From positions 124,001-188,000 of the forward strand of contig JAKPOP010000010.1 in the NCBI GenBank assembly GCA_029547805.1: 64,000 nucleotides of DNA. Direction: 5' to 3'. This DNA is from Deltaproteobacteria bacterium (GTDB lineage: Bacteria; Myxococcota_A; UBA9042; DTJE01). The translations under genes and the position numbers were made by a program. The notes under the pieces are model-generated. The model did not search any database. It was not told the DNA's origin and saw nothing but the letters and a program-made list of their open reading frames with translations. Every line of letters begins with the position of its first letter. The first letter of the stretch is position 1. Shown piece after piece: positions 29,440-47,472 of the stretch.

Positions 29440-30660
29440 CTATTTCCCAGTCCCGGAGAGGTTGTCGGCCATCGAGAAGATCGGCAGGTACATCGCGATC
29501 AGCACGAAGCCCACCATGCCGCCGATGACGATCATCAGCATCGGCTCGATCATGGACGTCAGGGCCTCCACCGAGGCATCCACCTCGTCGTCGTAGAAGT
29601 CCGCGATCTTGGTCAGCATCACGTCCATCGCGCCGGTGGACTCGCCGACGGCAATCATCTGGACCACCATCTTCGGGAAGATCCTGGCCTCATCCAGCGG
29701 GCCCGCAATGTTCTTTCCCTCGGCCACCTTGGACCGGGTGTACTGGATCCCCTTCTCGATCACCCGGTTGCCCGCGGACCGGGCCACGACGTCCAGGCCG
29801 TCCAGGATCGGGACGCCCGAGGAGACGAGGGTCCCGAGGGTCCGGGTGAACCGGGCGATGGAGGACTTCTGCACCAGGGTGCCGATGACCGGGATCTTCA
29901 GCAGCAGCAGGTCCAGCAGGTAGGCCCCGGTCTTGCTCCGCTTGAACAGCACGAACCCGACGATCACCGCCGTGGCCACCAGGGCAAACCACGGGACGTT
30001 GTGCAGGAACTTGTTCGAGAGGTTCACCACGAACTGCGTCAAGGCCGGCAGTTCCCGGTTGCCGACGCCCTTGAAGATGCCCGCCATCGACGGGATCACC
30101 TTGCCCAGCAACAGCACCAATGTCCCGCCTGCGGCGATCAGGACGAAGGAGGGATATTTCAACGCCCCCTGGACCTTCTGCCGGAGTTTCATGGATTTCT
30201 CGGTGTAGGAGGCCAGGCGGTTCAGGATCGTGTCCAGGATGCCGCCGACCTCGCCGGCCTGGACCAGGGAGATGAAGAGGGTGTCGAAGACCTTGGGGTG
30301 CTTCTTCAGGGCATCGGCGAGCGTCGAACCCTGCTCCACCTGGCCCTTCACCGAGAGGATCACCTTCTTGAACTGGGGATCGGGCTCCTGGCTCCCGAGG
30401 ATGTCCAGGCACTGCACCAGGGGCAGGCCCGCGTCGATCATGGTGGCCAGCTGCCGGGTGAAGACCACCAGGGTCTTGGTCTTGACCCCACCCAGGCTCG
30501 GGAGCGTGATCTCGATCTGTCCCCAGGCCCGGGAGACCTTGGTCGGCTGGACCCCGGAGGCCCGGACCCGGGCCTCGGCCTCGGCCAGGTTGGAGGCCTC
30601 CACGGTCCCCTTCCGGAACTGCCCCTCCCGGGTCGTTCCTTCATACTGGAACTTCGCCAT
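29440..30660 (-). CDS. pilC: Type IV pilus inner-membrane platform protein PilC
   Basis: MAKFQYEGTTREGQFRKGTVEA; VFTRQLATMIDAGLPLVQCLDIL; GVPILDGLDVVARSAGN; MIEPMLMIVIGGMVGFVLIAMYLPIF. Confidence 0.95.
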   Translation of the reverse strand: MAKFQYEGTTREGQFRKGTVEASNLAEAEARVRASGVQPTKVSRAWGQIEITLPSLGGVKTKTLVVFTRQLATMIDAGLPLVQCLDILGSQEPDPQFKKVILSVKGQVEQGSTLADALKKHPKVFDTLFISLVQAGEVGGILDTILNRLASYTEKSMKLRQKVQGALKYPSFVLIAAGGTLVLLLGKVIPSMAGIFKGVGNRELPALTQFVVNLSNKFLHNVPWFALVATAVIVGFVLFKRSKTGAYLLDLLLLKIPVIGTLVQKSSIARFTRTLGTLVSSGVPILDGLDVVARSAGNRVIEKGIQYTRSKVAEGKNIAGPLDEARIFPKMVVQMIAVGESTGAMDVMLTKIADFYDDEVDASVEALTSMIEPMLMIVIGGMVGFVLIAMYLPIFSMADNLSGTGK

Positions 30661-30700
30661 CCGGAGTCCTCCTGCCCGGCCGGGCCGCCCGTTCCAGCCC

Positions 30701-31828
30701 TCAGAGACCGGCCTGGGCCATCATGTTCTGCAACTCCTCCAGGTCCCCCGCCCGCAACAGGGCCTCGTCCTTCGTGATCAGCCGCTCCTTCACCAGGCGC
30801 AGCAGGCTCTGGTTCAGGGTCTGCATCCCGGACCGCCCCTGGCCCATCTGCATCTGGGAGTAGATCTGGTGGATCTTCCCCTCCCGGATCAGGTTCCGGA
30901 CCGCCGGCGTCGGCATCAGGAGTTCCAGGGCCATCACCCGCCCCCGGCCGTCCATCCGGGGCAGCAACTGCTGGCACAGGATCCCCTCGATCACGAAGGC
31001 GAACTGACCCCGCACCCGCTCCTGCTGCTCCACCGGGAAGAGGTCCATCACCCGGTTGATCGTCTGGGCCGCCGAGTTGGTGTGCAGGGTCGAGAGCACC
31101 AGGTGCCCCGTCTCGGACAGGCGCAGCGCCGTCTCCATCGTCTCGGTGTCCCGGATCTCGCCCACGAGCACGACGTCCGGGTCCTGCCGCATCACGTAGC
31201 GCAGCGCATCGGAGAAGGTCTGGGTGTCGGACCCCACCTCCCGCTGGTTCACAATGCAGTTCTTGTGGGTGTGCAGGAACTCGATGGGGTCCTCGATCGT
31301 GATGATGTGGCCACGCCGGCGCTGATTGATCAGGTCGATCATCGAGGCCAGCGTGGTGGACTTCCCGGACCCGGTGGGTCCCGTGACCAGGATCAGGCCC
31401 CGGGGCCGGTCCACCAGCTGGTAGATCGCCGACGGCAGGCCCAGTTCCTCGAAAGTCAGGATGCGGGTGGGGATCTGCCGCAACGCCCCGGCGATGCTGC
31501 CCCGCTGGCGGAAGAAATTGGCCCGGAACCGGCTCACTCCCTTCCACTGGAACGACAGGTCGATCTCGTTGCGCTCCTCGAAACGCTTCTTCTGGCTCTC
31601 GGTCAGGATCGAGTAGGCCAGTCGCTGGGTGTCCGCTGGCGTCAGGGGCGGGACCTTCACCGGGTAGAGGTTGCCGTCCACCCGGAGGTGAGGCGGCGTC
31701 CCGACCGTGAGGTGGAGGTCCGAGGCCCCCTTCTCGACCATCACCTGGAGCAGTGCATGGATTTCCAGGACCGGTGTCCCGGGCGGCGGGCTCTGGGACT
31801 TCGGGGTGGAAGGCCCTGGGGAATTCAT
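30701..31828 (-). CDS. pilT: Type IV pilus retraction ATPase PilT
   Basis: LLQVMVEKGASDLHLTVG; VTGPTGSGKSTTLASMID; RQDPDVVLVGEIRDTETMETALRLSETGHLVLSTLHTNSA. Confidence 0.96.
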   Translation of the reverse strand: MNSPGPSTPKSQSPPPGTPVLEIHALLQVMVEKGASDLHLTVGTPPHLRVDGNLYPVKVPPLTPADTQRLAYSILTESQKKRFEERNEIDLSFQWKGVSRFRANFFRQRGSIAGALRQIPTRILTFEELGLPSAIYQLVDRPRGLILVTGPTGSGKSTTLASMIDLINQRRRGHIITIEDPIEFLHTHKNCIVNQREVGSDTQTFSDALRYVMRQDPDVVLVGEIRDTETMETALRLSETGHLVLSTLHTNSAAQTINRVMDLFPVEQQERVRGQFAFVIEGILCQQLLPRMDGRGRVMALELLMPTPAVRNLIREGKIHQIYSQMQMGQGRSGMQTLNQSLLRLVKERLITKDEALLRAGDLEELQNMMAQAGL

Positions 31829-31840
31829 GGTCCTCCCTGG

Positions 31841-33664
31841 TCAGTCGGCGCGGGTCACCCGGAGCACCTCCTCGATGGTGGTGACGCCGGCCTTCACCTT
31901 CGCCAGACCCGCCTGGCGCAGTGACATCATCCCCAGCCGCATGGCCTCCCGCTTCAGTTCCACTGCCGAGAAGCCCTGGAGGATGGCCTCCTTGATCTCG
32001 TCCCCGACGGGCATCACCTCGTAGATGCCGCTCCGGCCCTTGTAGCCCGTCTCGTTGCAGACACGGCATCCCCGGCCCTTCATCGGGACGACGCTCTTCG
32101 CCTCCTTTTCCGAGAACCCGATCTGCATCAGGACCTCCGGCGAGACCGGGGCCGGTTCCTTGCACTCCTTGCAGATCTTTCGGACCAGTCGCTGGGCCAG
32201 GACCAGGATCAGCGAGGCCGTCACCAGGAACGGCTCGATGCCCATGTTCAGCAGCCGATTGATCGTCGAGGGGGCGTCGTTGGTGTGCAGCGTCGAGAGC
32301 ACCAGGTGCCCCGTCAGGGCGGCCTTGACCGCTGTCTCCGCCGTCTCGAAGTCCCGGATCTCCCCGACCATGATGATGTCCGGGTCCTGCCGGAGGAAGG
32401 ACCGCAGCGCCGCGGCGAAGGTCAGCCCGATCTCCTCCCGGACGTGCACCTGGTTGATCCCCGGGATGTTCATCTCGACCGGGTCCTCGGCGGTGGAGAT
32501 GTTCTCGGTCGTGGTGTTCAGTTCCGTCAGGGCCGAGTAGAGCGTCGTGGACTTTCCGGACCCCGTCGGACCGGTGACCAGCACCATGCCCCAGGGCTGG
32601 TGGATGGCCTCCCGGAACTGCCGCAGGGGGACCTCCTCGAATCCGATGGCCGCCAGGTCCAGTTTCAGGGCGCTCTTGTCCAGGACTCGGGCGACCACCT
32701 TCTCCCCGAAAAGGCAGGGGAGGATGCTGATTCGGAAGTCGACCTCCTTCTCCTTGCCCATCACGAGCCGGATCCGGCCGTCCTGGGGCAGACGGCGCTC
32801 GGCGATGTCCAGTTCCGCCATGATCTTGATGCGGGAGACGATGGCATTGCGCAGGCGCATCGGCGGGCGCATCACCTCGTAGAGCACGCCGTCCATCCGG
32901 TAGCGGACCCGGAAGTCCTTCTCGTAGGCCTCGATGTGGATGTCCGAGGCCCCGCGCTTCACCGCATCCACCAGGATCATGTTGACGAGCCGGACGACCG
33001 GGGCCTCCTCGGTGGCCTTCGCCAGTTCCGTGAGGTCCACCTGCTCGTCCTTCACCACGTCGATCCGGCCCGGTTCCTCCTCCCCCTCGATCTCCTCGAA
33101 GAGGGACTTCAGGCGCTCGTCGTGCTGAGTGGTTCCGTAGTACCGCTCGATGGCCTTCCGGATGGACGTCTCCGACGCGACGAGGACCTCGACGTTGAGT
33201 CCCGTCAGGAACTTCAGGTCGTCCATCGCGTAGATGTTTCCCGGGTCGCTCATCGCCACGATCAGCGTCGAACCCTGGCGCATGATCGGCATCAGGACAT
33301 GGCGCTCGGCCACCTCCCGGGGCACCAGTTTGACGGCCTCCTCGCTGACGTCGGCCTCGTCGAGGTTGATCGACGGGACCCCGTACTGGCGGGACAGGAA
33401 ACTGATGAGGTGACTCTCTTCGAGGTAGCCCAGTTTCGCCAGCGTGTAGCCCAGGTTCTCGCCATCCTGCTGGACCCGCTGGGCGTCCTGCAACTGGCTC
33501 AGGTTGATCAGTTTCTCCCGGAGGAGCAGTTCCCCCAGGCTGCTCCCGGGGCCCCCGACCCGGGCCGGGGTGTAGTCCCCCCCGCCCCCGACACGGGAGG
33601 GCAGCCGATCGGTCGTCCGGGACGAGGCTTCATCCTTCGTGGGATCCCTGGGGTCTTCCGGCAT
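31841..33664 (-). CDS. pilB: Type IV pilus assembly ATPase PilB
   Basis: GspE N-terminal-like domain; GPTGSGKSTTLYSAL; RQDPDIIMVGEIRDFETAETAVKAALTGHLVLSTLHTNDAPSTI; CxxC pairs CKECKE / CRVCNE. Confidence 0.96.
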   Translation of the reverse strand: MPEDPRDPTKDEASSRTTDRLPSRVGGGGDYTPARVGGPGSSLGELLLREKLINLSQLQDAQRVQQDGENLGYTLAKLGYLEESHLISFLSRQYGVPSINLDEADVSEEAVKLVPREVAERHVLMPIMRQGSTLIVAMSDPGNIYAMDDLKFLTGLNVEVLVASETSIRKAIERYYGTTQHDERLKSLFEEIEGEEEPGRIDVVKDEQVDLTELAKATEEAPVVRLVNMILVDAVKRGASDIHIEAYEKDFRVRYRMDGVLYEVMRPPMRLRNAIVSRIKIMAELDIAERRLPQDGRIRLVMGKEKEVDFRISILPCLFGEKVVARVLDKSALKLDLAAIGFEEVPLRQFREAIHQPWGMVLVTGPTGSGKSTTLYSALTELNTTTENISTAEDPVEMNIPGINQVHVREEIGLTFAAALRSFLRQDPDIIMVGEIRDFETAETAVKAALTGHLVLSTLHTNDAPSTINRLLNMGIEPFLVTASLILVLAQRLVRKICKECKEPAPVSPEVLMQIGFSEKEAKSVVPMKGRGCRVCNETGYKGRSGIYEVMPVGDEIKEAILQGFSAVELKREAMRLGMMSLRQAGLAKVKAGVTTIEEVLRVTRAD

Positions 33665-42158: not shown

Positions 42159-43133
42159 ATGAAGACGACGTTGGACGTGCTCTTGCTGCTGGCCCTGCCC
42201 GCCTCGGGCAAGTCGGAGGTCCGCAAGTTCCTGGCGGCCCACGGCCCCGAGGAGTGCCGGTCGCTCTTCTTCCTGGGGCCGACGGTGCAACTGGACGACT
42301 ACCCCTACGTCCACCTGATGCGCCGGATCGACGATGAACTGGAGCGGATGGGTCAGCCCCGAGTCTTCTTCCGGTCCTCGGAAGAGGGATTCGCGGACCC
42401 CCGGGACTGGATCACCTTGATCGAACTGCTCAACGACGACTGGGCCTCCCTGCACCGGCCCCCGGCCGACCTTCCGCCCCGATGTGCGGGGACGCTGATG
42501 GACCGGATCGAGGCCGCCTCCGATCGCGCCGGGATCGGGCCCCGTCTGGCGCGGCTGCGAACCGACCGGCGAAGGGCCCTGGAGGACGAACTGGAGACCG
42601 AGAGCCGGATGCTGCTGGAGGACCTCCAGGAGGCGATCCCCCCGTCCCTGGAGGGTCGGACCGTCGTGATCGAGTTCGCCCGGGGTGGACCCGACGGGTC
42701 CGCGATGCCACTGCCGGATCCCCTGGGCTACCGGGCCTCCCTGCAACGCCTGGCACCGGACCTCCTGGCGAAGGCGGCGGTCCTCTACATCTGGGTGACC
42801 CCCGAGGAGTCCCGGCGCAAGAACCAGGAGCGTGCGGACCCGACCCAGCCGGGTTCCATCCTCCATCACGGGGTGCCCCTGCCGGTGATGCTCGGGGAGT
42901 ACGGTTGCGACGACATGGAGTGGTTGATCGGGCAGTCGGACCGCCCGGGCACCCTGCGGGTCGAGGCCCATGGGCGCACCTTCCACCTGCCCGCGGCGCG
43001 CCTGGACAACCGGGTGGACCGGACCACCTTCGTCCGGGGACCCAGGGACCAGTGGGACCCCGGGGCCGTCGAGACCCTCCGGTCCGCGCTTCACGACGCC
43101 TTGAAGTCCCTGGCCTCGACGCCCCGGGACTGA
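42159..43133 (+). CDS. Uncharacterised P-loop NTPase / kinase-like protein
   Basis: LLLLALPASGKSEVRKFL (Walker A-like AxxxxGKS) at the N-terminus; GRTVVIEFARGG; strong RBS aaaggaggagg. Confidence 0.7.
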   Translation: MKTTLDVLLLLALPASGKSEVRKFLAAHGPEECRSLFFLGPTVQLDDYPYVHLMRRIDDELERMGQPRVFFRSSEEGFADPRDWITLIELLNDDWASLHRPPADLPPRCAGTLMDRIEAASDRAGIGPRLARLRTDRRRALEDELETESRMLLEDLQEAIPPSLEGRTVVIEFARGGPDGSAMPLPDPLGYRASLQRLAPDLLAKAAVLYIWVTPEESRRKNQERADPTQPGSILHHGVPLPVMLGEYGCDDMEWLIGQSDRPGTLRVEAHGRTFHLPAARLDNRVDRTTFVRGPRDQWDPGAVETLRSALHDALKSLASTPRD

Positions 43134-43173: not shown

Positions 43174-44454
43174 TCACTGCAAGGTGGACGCGACCTTCTG
43201 CAGCAGCGCCTTCCACCGGATGCAGGCGACGGTCCGGGAACCGCCACGGCAGGCCCGGGCCTTCTCCCGCCCCAGGGCCGGCATCAAGGCCCGAAGACGG
43301 GACCGGACATCCTCGAAGAAGGCCGATTCCCGGGGGATCGAGAACAGGGCCTGCAAGGCCGGTTCCCACCGGCCCTCGGCCTGGTCCCGATCCGACGAGG
43401 CGAGGGCCTCCGCCGCCCGTCGCTCCCGTTGGAGCCGGTTCTCCACCCGGACGGCCGAGGGATCCAGGGGATGGTCCTCCAGGACGATCCGGACCAGGCG
43501 CTCGGCATCGTCCAGGCGCCGCTGGTCCAGCATCCGCCGCGCCTCCTCCAGGGTCCCGGCGGCATCCCGGACGACCTCCGGGGAGCCCGCTGCGGCTGCC
43601 TCCGGTGCGTGTCCCGCCCCGGGGGCCTCCGGTCCCGGCGTCGCCGCCTCCGGGACCGAAGAAGGGCCTCCCATCGAAGAGGAGGAGGCCTCGGTGGACA
43701 CCCCCTCCCCCATCGACTTGCGACCGGACCACCAGGCGACGCCACCGACCACCAGGGCACCGACCACCAGGGCACCGATCCCCAGTCGCCAGGCCCGTCG
43801 AAGACGACCACGTCGACTCCGGATCGTCCCGGCCTCGGGCAGTTCCACCAGGAACTCCACGTCCCCGAACCGCAGGAGGTCCCCGTTTGCCAGTTCCCGA
43901 GCCCGGACCCGGGAGTCGTTCACGAAGACCCCGTTGGCGCTGTCCAGGTCCTCGACGATCACGGACCCGTCCATCCGAGCCAACAGGCGGGCGTGGTTGC
44001 GACTGACCGACGGGTCCAGCAGCACCAGGGCGCAGTCGCGCCCCCGGCCGACCATCACGACGTCCTGGGAGACCTCGGTCACCTGGTCCCGTACACCGGG
44101 ACTGCGGCCCACGAGCCGCACTCGCAGCGCCTCGGCCGCCGGGACCCGAGGCCCCTGCACCCGGATCCGGAACTCTCCGATCCGGAGCACCTCGCCGTCC
44201 TGAAGGAACCTCGGCTCCTGGACCCGCTCCTCCCCGATCCAGATGCCGTTGGAGGAGCCGAGGTCCTCCAGCATCAGCCTTCCGCCGTGGACCGAGAACC
44301 GGGCGTGCCTGCGGGAGACGCTCTCGGAGGGAAGGATCAGGTCGCACTGACGGCTGCGCCCGGCCACCACGATCCCGTCGCGGATCTCCCGCTGGTCCGA
44401 TACGACCCCGAGCCGATCCTCGACGATGAGCAACCAGCCCGACAGCCCGGCCAT
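43174..44454 (-). CDS. Double-FHA domain membrane protein with C-terminal helical/TPR-like region
   Basis: VAGRSRQCDLILPSESVSRRHARF...LGSSNGIWI and MVGRGRDCALVLLDPSVSRNHARL...LDSANGVFV; TM GIGALVVGALVVGGVAWW. Confidence 0.85.
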   Translation of the reverse strand: MAGLSGWLLIVEDRLGVVSDQREIRDGIVVAGRSRQCDLILPSESVSRRHARFSVHGGRLMLEDLGSSNGIWIGEERVQEPRFLQDGEVLRIGEFRIRVQGPRVPAAEALRVRLVGRSPGVRDQVTEVSQDVVMVGRGRDCALVLLDPSVSRNHARLLARMDGSVIVEDLDSANGVFVNDSRVRARELANGDLLRFGDVEFLVELPEAGTIRSRRGRLRRAWRLGIGALVVGALVVGGVAWWSGRKSMGEGVSTEASSSSMGGPSSVPEAATPGPEAPGAGHAPEAAAAGSPEVVRDAAGTLEEARRMLDQRRLDDAERLVRIVLEDHPLDPSAVRVENRLQRERRAAEALASSDRDQAEGRWEPALQALFSIPRESAFFEDVRSRLRALMPALGREKARACRGGSRTVACIRWKALLQKVASTLQ

Positions 44455-44487: not shown

Positions 44488-46227
44488 CTAGCCGGGAGTT
44501 CGCAGGCTCGCCAGGCGGCAGCCACCCGCCGGGTCCGACTCCAGACGGGCCACCTGCCGGACCATCCGGCGGGCCATCGACCGGGCCCCGTTCTCCGGGA
44601 GTCCGGGGATCGCCAACATCAGCATGGTGTCCAGGAGCGCTGCGGGAGAAGAGTCCCCGTCATCCGCCGACCAGCCCGCCAGGAGGCCGCTGCCGGCCAG
44701 GGACTGGCGGGCCAGCAGGGGCAGGTCGTCCACCTCGAGGTCGACCGCGACGACCAGGTCGGGCCGCAAGGAGGCCAGCAGCGCCGCCGCCGCAGGGCCC
44801 ATGGCCGCCAGGGCCCGCCGGTCCAGCCGGATCACCCCGGATCCCGCATCGGCGCCCCCGGGCCCTCCATCCAGTACCACGACGCGGAAGTTCCCCGGCA
44901 GGGTCCCCAGAAGCGCCAGGGCGAATGCCCGCCTCTGGGCCGGCGTCCCGCCCGCGAGGGCGACCCCCTGGCGATCCAGGACCGCCTGCCGCAGCAGGTC
45001 GGCCTCCGGCTCCGGCACCCGACCCTCCGAGACCCACTCGGACCATGCGGGGTGCCGCAGGACACACCGCTCCAACCGGATCACCCGCCCCCCCACGGCG
45101 ACCGGGGGATTGACCACCTGGAGGGAGAACCCCTCCAGCAGGGCCGCCTGCACGGATGCCTGGCCCAGGGCCTCCCGGGAGACCCCGGCCAGGTTCGCCA
45201 GCCGTTCCAGCACCCGGTCCTGTCCCCGCTGGGACGAGAAGCCCCGAACGACGCGGTCGACGCGGTCGCCCCGGCACACGAACACCTGTTCCCGGCCGAT
45301 GGTCATCATCCCGTGGATGGTCTCGTCGGCCAGGAGTTCCTCGAAGGGGCCCAGGCCCAGAAACTCGTAGAGGAGGTCCTGGGTCACCTCGTAGGGGTCG
45401 ACGTCCGGTCCAATCCGGCCCTCGCGCCGGAGATGATCCACCAGGCGCATCACCCCATTCGAGAGTCGCTGCCACACCTCGTCGGTGATCTCCTGCGTGG
45501 TGGGGTCGATCCCCGCGAACACCGTCCCCGCCGCGGCCTCCGCCAGGAGTCCCAGGGCCTTCACATACCTCTCGGGGGCCGACAGGTCCTGTGCCGTCGC
45601 GGGCCGGCGGGATACCGCCGACAGCCGGCTCGGCACCGAGACCGAGACCTCCGGGGAAGGGGACGGCTTCTCGGCGGGAGGCGGGGGAGGCGGCACCGCC
45701 GAGGGGGTGGTCGGTGCGACCCGGCTCGTGACGGGCTGCTCGACGGACTCCTGGGAGGGGGGAGCCTCCACCTCCACCTCGAGGTCCAGTGGCACTGGCA
45801 CGTCCGGCTGGCTCGCCTCAGGAGGCGGGGGCGGCGGCTCCACCGTCAGTGCTGGCATCGCCACCGTGGCCCGATACTGTGCCAGATCCTCCGGCGGGGG
45901 AGGCAGGGGGGTCGGCTCGTGGACGCCCGTGGTCCCCTGGACCTCGGAGAAACGGAGGATGTAGTCCCCGATGTAGACCCGATCCTCGGGGCTCAACTGC
46001 CTGGGTCCCGTGATGCGCCGGCCGTTCACGTAGGTGCCGTTGGTGCTCTTGAGGTCCGTCAGCACCACCGATCCCCCTTCGACCTGGACCATCGCGTGGC
46101 GCTTCGAGACGTTGGGCTTCGGGAGGACAATCAGGTTGCCCTGGACCCGCCCGATCGTCACGGCGGTGACATCGAACAGGTGCTCGTGCTCCAGTCCTCC
46201 CTTCTCGGCCACGGTGACCTTCAACAT
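44488..46227 (-). CDS. FHA domain fused to a CpaF/TadA-type secretion ATPase with degenerate Walker A/B (predicted pseudo-ATPase)
   Basis: FHA: TIGRVQGNLIVLPKPNVSKRHAM...LKSTNGTYVNG; CpaF-like LLYEFLGLGPFEELLADETIHGMMTIGREQVFV; P-loop position reads GGTPAQRRA; Walker B position LRPDLVVAVDLEV. Confidence 0.82.
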   Translation of the reverse strand: MLKVTVAEKGGLEHEHLFDVTAVTIGRVQGNLIVLPKPNVSKRHAMVQVEGGSVVLTDLKSTNGTYVNGRRITGPRQLSPEDRVYIGDYILRFSEVQGTTGVHEPTPLPPPPEDLAQYRATVAMPALTVEPPPPPPEASQPDVPVPLDLEVEVEAPPSQESVEQPVTSRVAPTTPSAVPPPPPPAEKPSPSPEVSVSVPSRLSAVSRRPATAQDLSAPERYVKALGLLAEAAAGTVFAGIDPTTQEITDEVWQRLSNGVMRLVDHLRREGRIGPDVDPYEVTQDLLYEFLGLGPFEELLADETIHGMMTIGREQVFVCRGDRVDRVVRGFSSQRGQDRVLERLANLAGVSREALGQASVQAALLEGFSLQVVNPPVAVGGRVIRLERCVLRHPAWSEWVSEGRVPEPEADLLRQAVLDRQGVALAGGTPAQRRAFALALLGTLPGNFRVVVLDGGPGGADAGSGVIRLDRRALAAMGPAAAALLASLRPDLVVAVDLEVDDLPLLARQSLAGSGLLAGWSADDGDSSPAALLDTMLMLAIPGLPENGARSMARRMVRQVARLESDPAGGCRLASLRTPG

Positions 46228-46401: not shown

Positions 46402-47472
46402 ATGAAGGCATCGAGAAGGGCCTGGCTGCTCTGGATCGCGGTCCCCTGGTGGACCTCGTGCGCGCCCAGGGTCCAGCAGGTCCGGATGGACCCCATGGAG
46501 TTCGTCGCCCAGCGCACAGACGAGGGAATCGCCGTGGACCTCCTGGACCCCGAGGTCCTGTTCCGGGAAGGGACCGAGGCCTGGGAGGCCCGTCGCCTGG
46601 AGGAGGCCGCCCGGAAGTTCGGGTGGATCGTGAAGCACTTCCCCGATACCCCCTGGGCCCGGCCGGCGCTCTACAACCGGGCCCTCTCCCTGCTGGCGGC
46701 ACGGCGCCCTGGAGAGGCGGCCGACGACCTCCAGGCGTTTCTCCAGAGATACCCCGAGGACGAGGACCTGCCGGACGTCCTGCTGAAGGCGGGCCAGGCC
46801 CTCCAGGAATCGGGGCGATGGTCCGAGGCCGAGGCCCTCCTGCGGAGACGCCTCGGATTTCCGATGACCCTCTTCCAGGAATTCGAGGCCCGGGCCCGCC
46901 TGGCCCGGGTGCTCCGGATGCTGGGCCGGAGTTCCGAGGCCCGGGAGGAGGTCCAGCGGGTGCTGTCGCTGGCGGATCGGAACGCCACGGTGCCCACGGT
47001 CCACGGAAACGAGTTCGTGGCGATGGCGTCGTACGAGGGGGCCGAGACGTGGCACGACCTCTTCTCCCGCATCCGGTTCGTGCTGCCGACCGAACGCATG
47101 GAGAAGGACCTGGAGGACAAGGCGACCCTGTTCCTGAAGGCCCAGGCGGAGTATCTCCGGACCCTGCGCCTCGGGAACGTCTACTGGAGCGTCCAGGCGG
47201 GACTGCGGATGGGGCGCCTCTACGAGGAGTTCTACGACGATCTCCTGGGAGCCGAGATCCCCCCGGAACTGAATCCGGAGGAGCGGGAGATCTACCTGCA
47301 GGAACTCCGACGCAAGGCCCGGCCCCTGGTGGCGAAGGCGGTGGCGACCTACGAGCGGAACCTCTCGCTGGCCCGGGCCTACGGGGCCCGGGAGGAGTGG
47401 CTGGGGGACCTCCCCCTGCGGATCGCCCGACTCCGGCGGATCCTCGAGGAGACGCCCGATTCCTCCCCCTGA
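46402..47472 (+). CDS. TPR lipoprotein
   Basis: MKASRRAWLLWIAVPWWTSCAPRVQ lipobox; TPR-like EGTEAWEARRLEEAARKFGWIVKHFPDTPWARPALYNRALSLLAARRPGEAADDLQAFLQRYPED. Confidence 0.8.
   Translation: MKASRRAWLLWIAVPWWTSCAPRVQQVRMDPMEFVAQRTDEGIAVDLLDPEVLFREGTEAWEARRLEEAARKFGWIVKHFPDTPWARPALYNRALSLLAARRPGEAADDLQAFLQRYPEDEDLPDVLLKAGQALQESGRWSEAEALLRRRLGFPMTLFQEFEARARLARVLRMLGRSSEAREEVQRVLSLADRNATVPTVHGNEFVAMASYEGAETWHDLFSRIRFVLPTERMEKDLEDKATLFLKAQAEYLRTLRLGNVYWSVQAGLRMGRLYEEFYDDLLGAEIPPELNPEEREIYLQELRRKARPLVAKAVATYERNLSLARAYGAREEWLGDLPLRIARLRRILEETPDSSP

Follow-up and report, generated by a model that had tools for sequence, protein, structure and literature searches.

An FHA domain is joined to a full-length CpaF/TadA-type secretion ATPase core, from which the catalytic residues have been lost, in a protein encoded in the window analyzed here (the whole 64,000-nucleotide stretch of contig JAKPOP010000010.1). 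Judged by these residues and by the gene content of its genome, it is well supported that this protein is a pseudo-ATPase and not a Tad motor. At least 70 related genomes keep the gene intact, together with its FHA domain and the gene for a membrane partner. We infer that the protein serves as a scaffold (described below).

Domain organization and the nucleotide site

The gene is a real open reading frame on the minus strand (Table 1), as the preliminary description had stated. Some gene calls at the locus rest on homology, a simple caller having chosen a long antisense ORF there. Pfam matched the FHA domain at residues 23–87 (E = 6e-19) and gave no T2SSE match in the protein, even at E ≤ 1, owing to the strong divergence of the ATPase part. 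The core was instead aligned by other searches: (i) phmmer against the PDB aligned residues 154–551 with CpaF (9e24, E = 3e-9); (ii) a profile of 37 orthologues matched the whole CpaF core to 9e24 at E = 5.6e-67; and (iii) the same profile also matched the VirB11 and FlaI structures over the core region. The core of Caulobacter CpaF (3HB-NTD-CAD) aligns with residues ~225–579. AlphaFold2 run on the single sequence, without an alignment, gave a model of too low confidence to interpret (pLDDT 41). The domain order FHA-IDR-3HB-NTD-CAD and the homology over the whole core are like those of the “class III” CpaF/TadA proteins in the accessible text of PMC12019362.

According to the same accessible text (PMC12019362), the nucleotide site of CpaF includes D215, R217, R223, K287, T288, E312, R347, and E357. 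We scored these eight positions together with the His-box histidines H374 and H382, and found that none of the ten residues is kept in the window protein, in agreement with the destroyed active site of the preliminary description, whose quoted motifs were all found in the translation. Q360, A362, and S368 stand at the positions of D215, R217, and R223, A362 and S368 being at Arg-finger positions, and the third Arg finger (R347) is replaced by S486. In Walker A, R432 and R433 occupy the positions of K287 and T288, and GK[ST] is absent; G457 stands in place of the Asp-box Glu (E312), D496 in place of the Walker B Glu (E357), and S513 and S520 in place of H374 and H382. The sole remnant at the P-loop is its first glycine, G426 (G281 in CpaF). 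CpaF, by contrast, has every one of the ten coordinating residues, as do the 8 intact CpaF-type proteins of the phylum that served as a control (with D or E at D215).

Table 1. Positions in the window of the pseudo-ATPase gene, its parts, and its putative operon partner
Feature	Position	Strand	Basis
FHA-linker-CpaF-like pseudo-ATPase, 579 aa, ATG start	44488..46227	(-)	ORF translation, Pfam, phmmer, orthologue profile
FHA domain, aa 18–92	45952..46176	(-)	Pfam PF00498 (E 6e-19), invariant columns, dN/dS
Pro-rich, probably disordered linker, aa 101–224	45556..45927	(-)	Sequence; resembles the IDR of “class III” CpaF (accessible text of PMC12019362)
Equivalents of three-helix bundle and N-terminal domain, aa 225–408	45004..45555	(-)	CpaF alignments
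Equivalent of RecA-like C-terminal ATPase domain, aa 409–579, catalytic residues lost	44491..45003	(-)	CpaF alignments, dN/dS 0.20
Walker A position, GGTPAQRR replacing GGTGSGKT	44929..44952	(-)	Alignment
Walker B position, RPDLVVAVDLEVD replacing RPDRIIVGEVRG	44728..44766	(-)	Alignment
His-box position, neither histidine present (S513, S520)	44635..44697	(-)	Alignment
2xFHA-TM protein, 426 aa, putative operon partner	43174..44454	(-)	Two FHA domains, conserved adjacency, dN/dS 0.27
Predicted TM segment of the 2xFHA protein, ~aa 224–242	43729..43785	(-)	Hydropathy only, and sequence

Selection on the gene, its FHA site, and its membrane partner

A sister genome of the same genus (G001) encodes a protein that is 87% identical and likewise reads GGTPAQRR at Walker A. 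The dN/dS values between the two genes, which are approximate (Nei-Gojobori), are 0.17 overall, 0.026 for the FHA domain, 0.20 for the dead ATPase domain, and 0.17 for the Walker A region; seven close pairs, this one included, range from 0.11 to 0.17, and the partner gene gives 0.27. The homologues examined, which come from dozens of genomes, have open frames with no internal stops. The suggestion of the preliminary description that the protein is a maintained pseudoenzyme is thus strongly supported by the loss shared with the same-genus sister, the separate losses in other genera of the family, purifying selection, and a conserved operon partner. Catalytic motifs that are destroyed, and that differ among genera, could also be read as the mark of a gene in decay or of a sequencing or assembly artefact, which we consider extremely improbable: this reading is already contradicted by the open frames, the dN/dS of ~0.17, the conserved operon, and the sister protein with its identical motif.

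The phosphothreonine-site residues of the FHA domain (G26, R27, S41, H44, and N63) are intact and do not vary in any of the 37 aligned sequences or across the window's class. By these residues, the domain is a predicted phosphothreonine-binding domain.

The double-FHA membrane gene that had been described directly downstream in the same orientation was confirmed. Its ATG is at 44454, ~33 nt past the stop of the pseudo-ATPase gene, and its product matches FHA twice (E = 1e-39). Throughout the class, a 2xFHA-TM gene lies directly downstream wherever the contig reaches far enough to show it, mostly at a distance of ~0–120 nt. The same arrangement occurs in several families elsewhere in the phylum, but several others (f18, f22, f34, and f54) have no adjacent 2xFHA gene, so that the pairing is not universal. 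Both FHA domains keep the binding motif G-R..S..H..N-G in 49 of 52 partner proteins. In f18, f22, f34, and f54, the divergent FHA-CpaF genes without an adjoining 2xFHA gene are those at L118, L123–L125, L127, L131, L132, L135, and L137. Short partners (246–277 aa) that end soon past the TM segment were seen at L048, L052, L066, L114, and L144, some of them at contig ends; two FHA domains and a TM segment may therefore be the minimal core, and the region beyond the membrane may be dispensable.

Family spread, course of loss, and origin

Of the genomes examined, almost all of those in the window's class have an orthologue, as do many across the phylum. A phylum-wide search gave matches in 244 of 284 genomes, a count that includes ordinary CpaF, and many of the matches are full-length with an FHA domain. 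A contig scan with the single window protein gave one weak relative, from Paractinoplanes; that scan relied on back-translated stretches, which fit near relatives only, and the whole-genome searches reached further. A tree was built from 78 core sequences, with the root assumed to be on the intact side; a branch with a support of 100/99 splits 70 divergent sequences from 8 intact ones.

The preliminary description had asked after sister genomes with an intact GKT and Glu, and no intact site was found in any genome of the window's order. Within the order, the P-loop Lys is kept in 4 of 13 proteins (GPKHSGKT, GPPRSGKT, GPPNSGKS, and GAPDTGKL), one of which also has the Walker B Glu. These Lys-keeping proteins belong to G013, G006, G004, and G007, the first three having the Lys as GK[ST]; the Walker B Glu is present in G004 only, and neither histidine is present in any of the four. 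The P-loop Lys has been lost throughout the window's own subgroup as well, and other genera of the window's family carry losses of their own. Across the alignment of the divergent family, H374 is missing from every row and K287 is retained in 16 of 72; by parsimony, at least 7 state changes are needed for K287 and 9 for E357. The outlying family f19, which includes two complete contigs, one of 5.05 Mb and one of 8.05 Mb, has mostly GKT or GKS, the Walker B Glu, and one His, with R347 and H374 gone. The motif at the nucleotide site changes rapidly between genera. This patchy survival of site residues across the relatives indicates that the loss was stepwise and repeated, with the window protein at the fully dead end.

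A permutation test of whether the catalytic columns had eroded more than the remaining columns that do not vary among intact CpaF proteins gave no significant difference (p = 0.05 in the family as a whole, p = 0.25 in the window's own order), and a selective loss of the catalytic columns is therefore not claimed. On this result, the entire surround of the nucleotide site has relaxed, and contacts within the hexamer may likewise be gone.

The Myxococcus xanthus protein KilF (MXAN_3107) is an FHA-fused CpaF ATPase clustered with the secretin KilC (PMC8460266); it drives the Kil pilus, and its gene lies within a Tad-like cluster (PMC8460266, PMC12075869). Two loci, from two genomes of the phylum, resemble this cluster: in both, a secretin gene is followed by an intact FHA-CpaF gene and then by a TPR gene, of the 2xFHA-TM-TPR type in L145:5927-10987 and of the FHA-TM-TPR type in L117:6491-12373. 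These Kil-like operons are candidates for the ancestral form of the two-gene unit in the window. Since intact members lie in Kil/Tad-like operons, the pseudo-ATPases, a phylum-wide family, are probably an orphaned Kil/Tad motor module, a conclusion that goes beyond the preliminary description. The simplest account would be that the family arose from a Kil-like operon after the loss of the secretin, platform, and pilins. Compared with KilF by description, the window protein is alike in having an N-terminal FHA domain joined to a CpaF-type ATPase and in its FHA-rich surroundings, and differs in having no catalytic residues, no nearby Tad genes, and no TadB/C in the genome. We know of no function assigned to the FHA fusion in the Kil predation system.

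Genome context and proposed role

No other CpaF-type match (E ≤ 1e-20) was found in the window's own genome, and the TadB/TadC platform was not found in a PF00482 scan of this genome, which is 96.7% complete. PF00482 (T2SSF) matched just two two-domain PilC/GspF-like proteins, one of which is the window's PilC. The genome has ~35 Ser/Thr kinase matches. As previously noted, no Tad, T2SS, or T4P gene is adjacent to the pseudo-ATPase gene, but the T4aP genes pilC, pilT, and pilB lie in the window in one run (29443-33664, minus strand), ~11–15 kb away; they are not conserved neighbours of the orthologues elsewhere. The conserved neighbours are housekeeping genes that vary by lineage, ThiG/ThiE-like in one family and, in that of the window, IF-2/RbfA/TruB-like; the names thi, IF-2, and TruB were given by reading the sequences. 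MlaC and outer-membrane-efflux genes are neighbours across class borders. Kil/Tad genes (secretin, peptidase, and others) were not found among the conserved neighbours of the divergent family. Next to the two-gene unit, at 42159-43130 (plus strand), lies the gene for a 324-aa protein that begins with a P-loop-like stretch (LPASGKSEV) and has no match in Pfam; in the window's family, this gene is conserved as a convergent neighbour. On the other side, at 46402-47469 (plus strand), a TPR protein is encoded divergently from the pseudo-ATPase gene, and seven or more genomes of the family have the same placement.

We consider it reasonably probable that the window protein is an ATP-independent descendant of an FHA-fused Tad/Kil motor ATPase (the “class III” CpaF, KilF type) that is now a phosphorylation-gated membrane scaffold. 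The protein would retain a CpaF-like fold and probably CpaF-like oligomerization, so that its N-terminal FHA domains, each carried on a flexible linker, would be arrayed as a ring of arms that bind phosphothreonine. Binding to phosphorylated partners would be switched by Hanks-type kinases, and the 2xFHA-TM protein would recruit or cluster the pseudo-ATPase at the inner membrane. Such a scaffold would be what remains of the stripped Kil-like operon. The relaxed surround of the nucleotide site, with its possible loss of hexamer contacts, and the families without an adjacent 2xFHA gene count against this model. The phosphothreonine-responsive hexameric scaffold proposed in the preliminary description would be compatible with the findings. 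A wider form of this proposal, in which the orphaned Tad/Kil module is phylum-wide and its hexameric ATPase was repeatedly made into an ATP-independent, phosphothreonine-gated ring scaffold with a 2xFHA membrane partner, is put forward more tentatively and seems to us somewhat short of an even chance.

The other role raised in the preliminary description, a decoy, is disfavoured, as is a regulator of an active Tad motor: the genome encodes neither another CpaF nor TadB/C. A related possibility is that the protein docks on or joins an active filament ATPase, such as the T4aP PilB or PilT, as a poison or phospho-sensing subunit. The pilB, pilT, and pilC genes are on the same strand, and the FHA-CpaF relatives are true motors by motifs and operons; we nevertheless regard this as unlikely, given the absence of a second CpaF-type ATPase and of TadB/C, conserved neighbours that are not T4P genes, and a residual similarity that points to CpaF and not to PilB. 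The CpaF-like region could also be, instead of a passive scaffold, a switch that binds a nucleotide, a c-di-nucleotide, or another ligand in a remodelled pocket, and the relatives that keep GK[ST] may bind ATP without turnover. K287 with S/T288 in some members (GPKHSGKT, GPPRSGKT, and GPTSSGKTT) and purifying selection that reaches the Walker A region would fit such a switch. The complete replacement of the coordinating residues in the window protein and the fast variation of the motif between genera, which is unlike a conserved new pocket, argue against it, and we hold it to be about as doubtful as the docking of the protein on a filament ATPase.

In the literature searched, no pseudoenzyme was found described in the PilT/VirB11 secretion-ATPase family, and a catalytically dead CpaF class is not described in the accessible text of PMC12019362. 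The bacterial Ser/Thr pseudokinases, as presented in the accessible text of PMC12599244, are similar in their conserved catalytic loss, maintained fold, and likely signalling role; they have a kinase fold, whereas the window protein has a predicted secretion-ATPase fold. The relatives of the window protein form a natural series that starts with intact KilF-like proteins, passes through those with GK[ST] only, and ends with fully dead ones; the order in which site residues were lost can be read from it. That an old two-gene unit has been kept despite full catalytic loss raises the question of what a filament motor does without ATP. That a Kil relative dropped the motor and kept the FHA domain suggests that what matters is the phosphothreonine signalling. 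If the scaffold proposal is true, these proteins would be a new kind of bacterial signalling platform built from a secretion motor.
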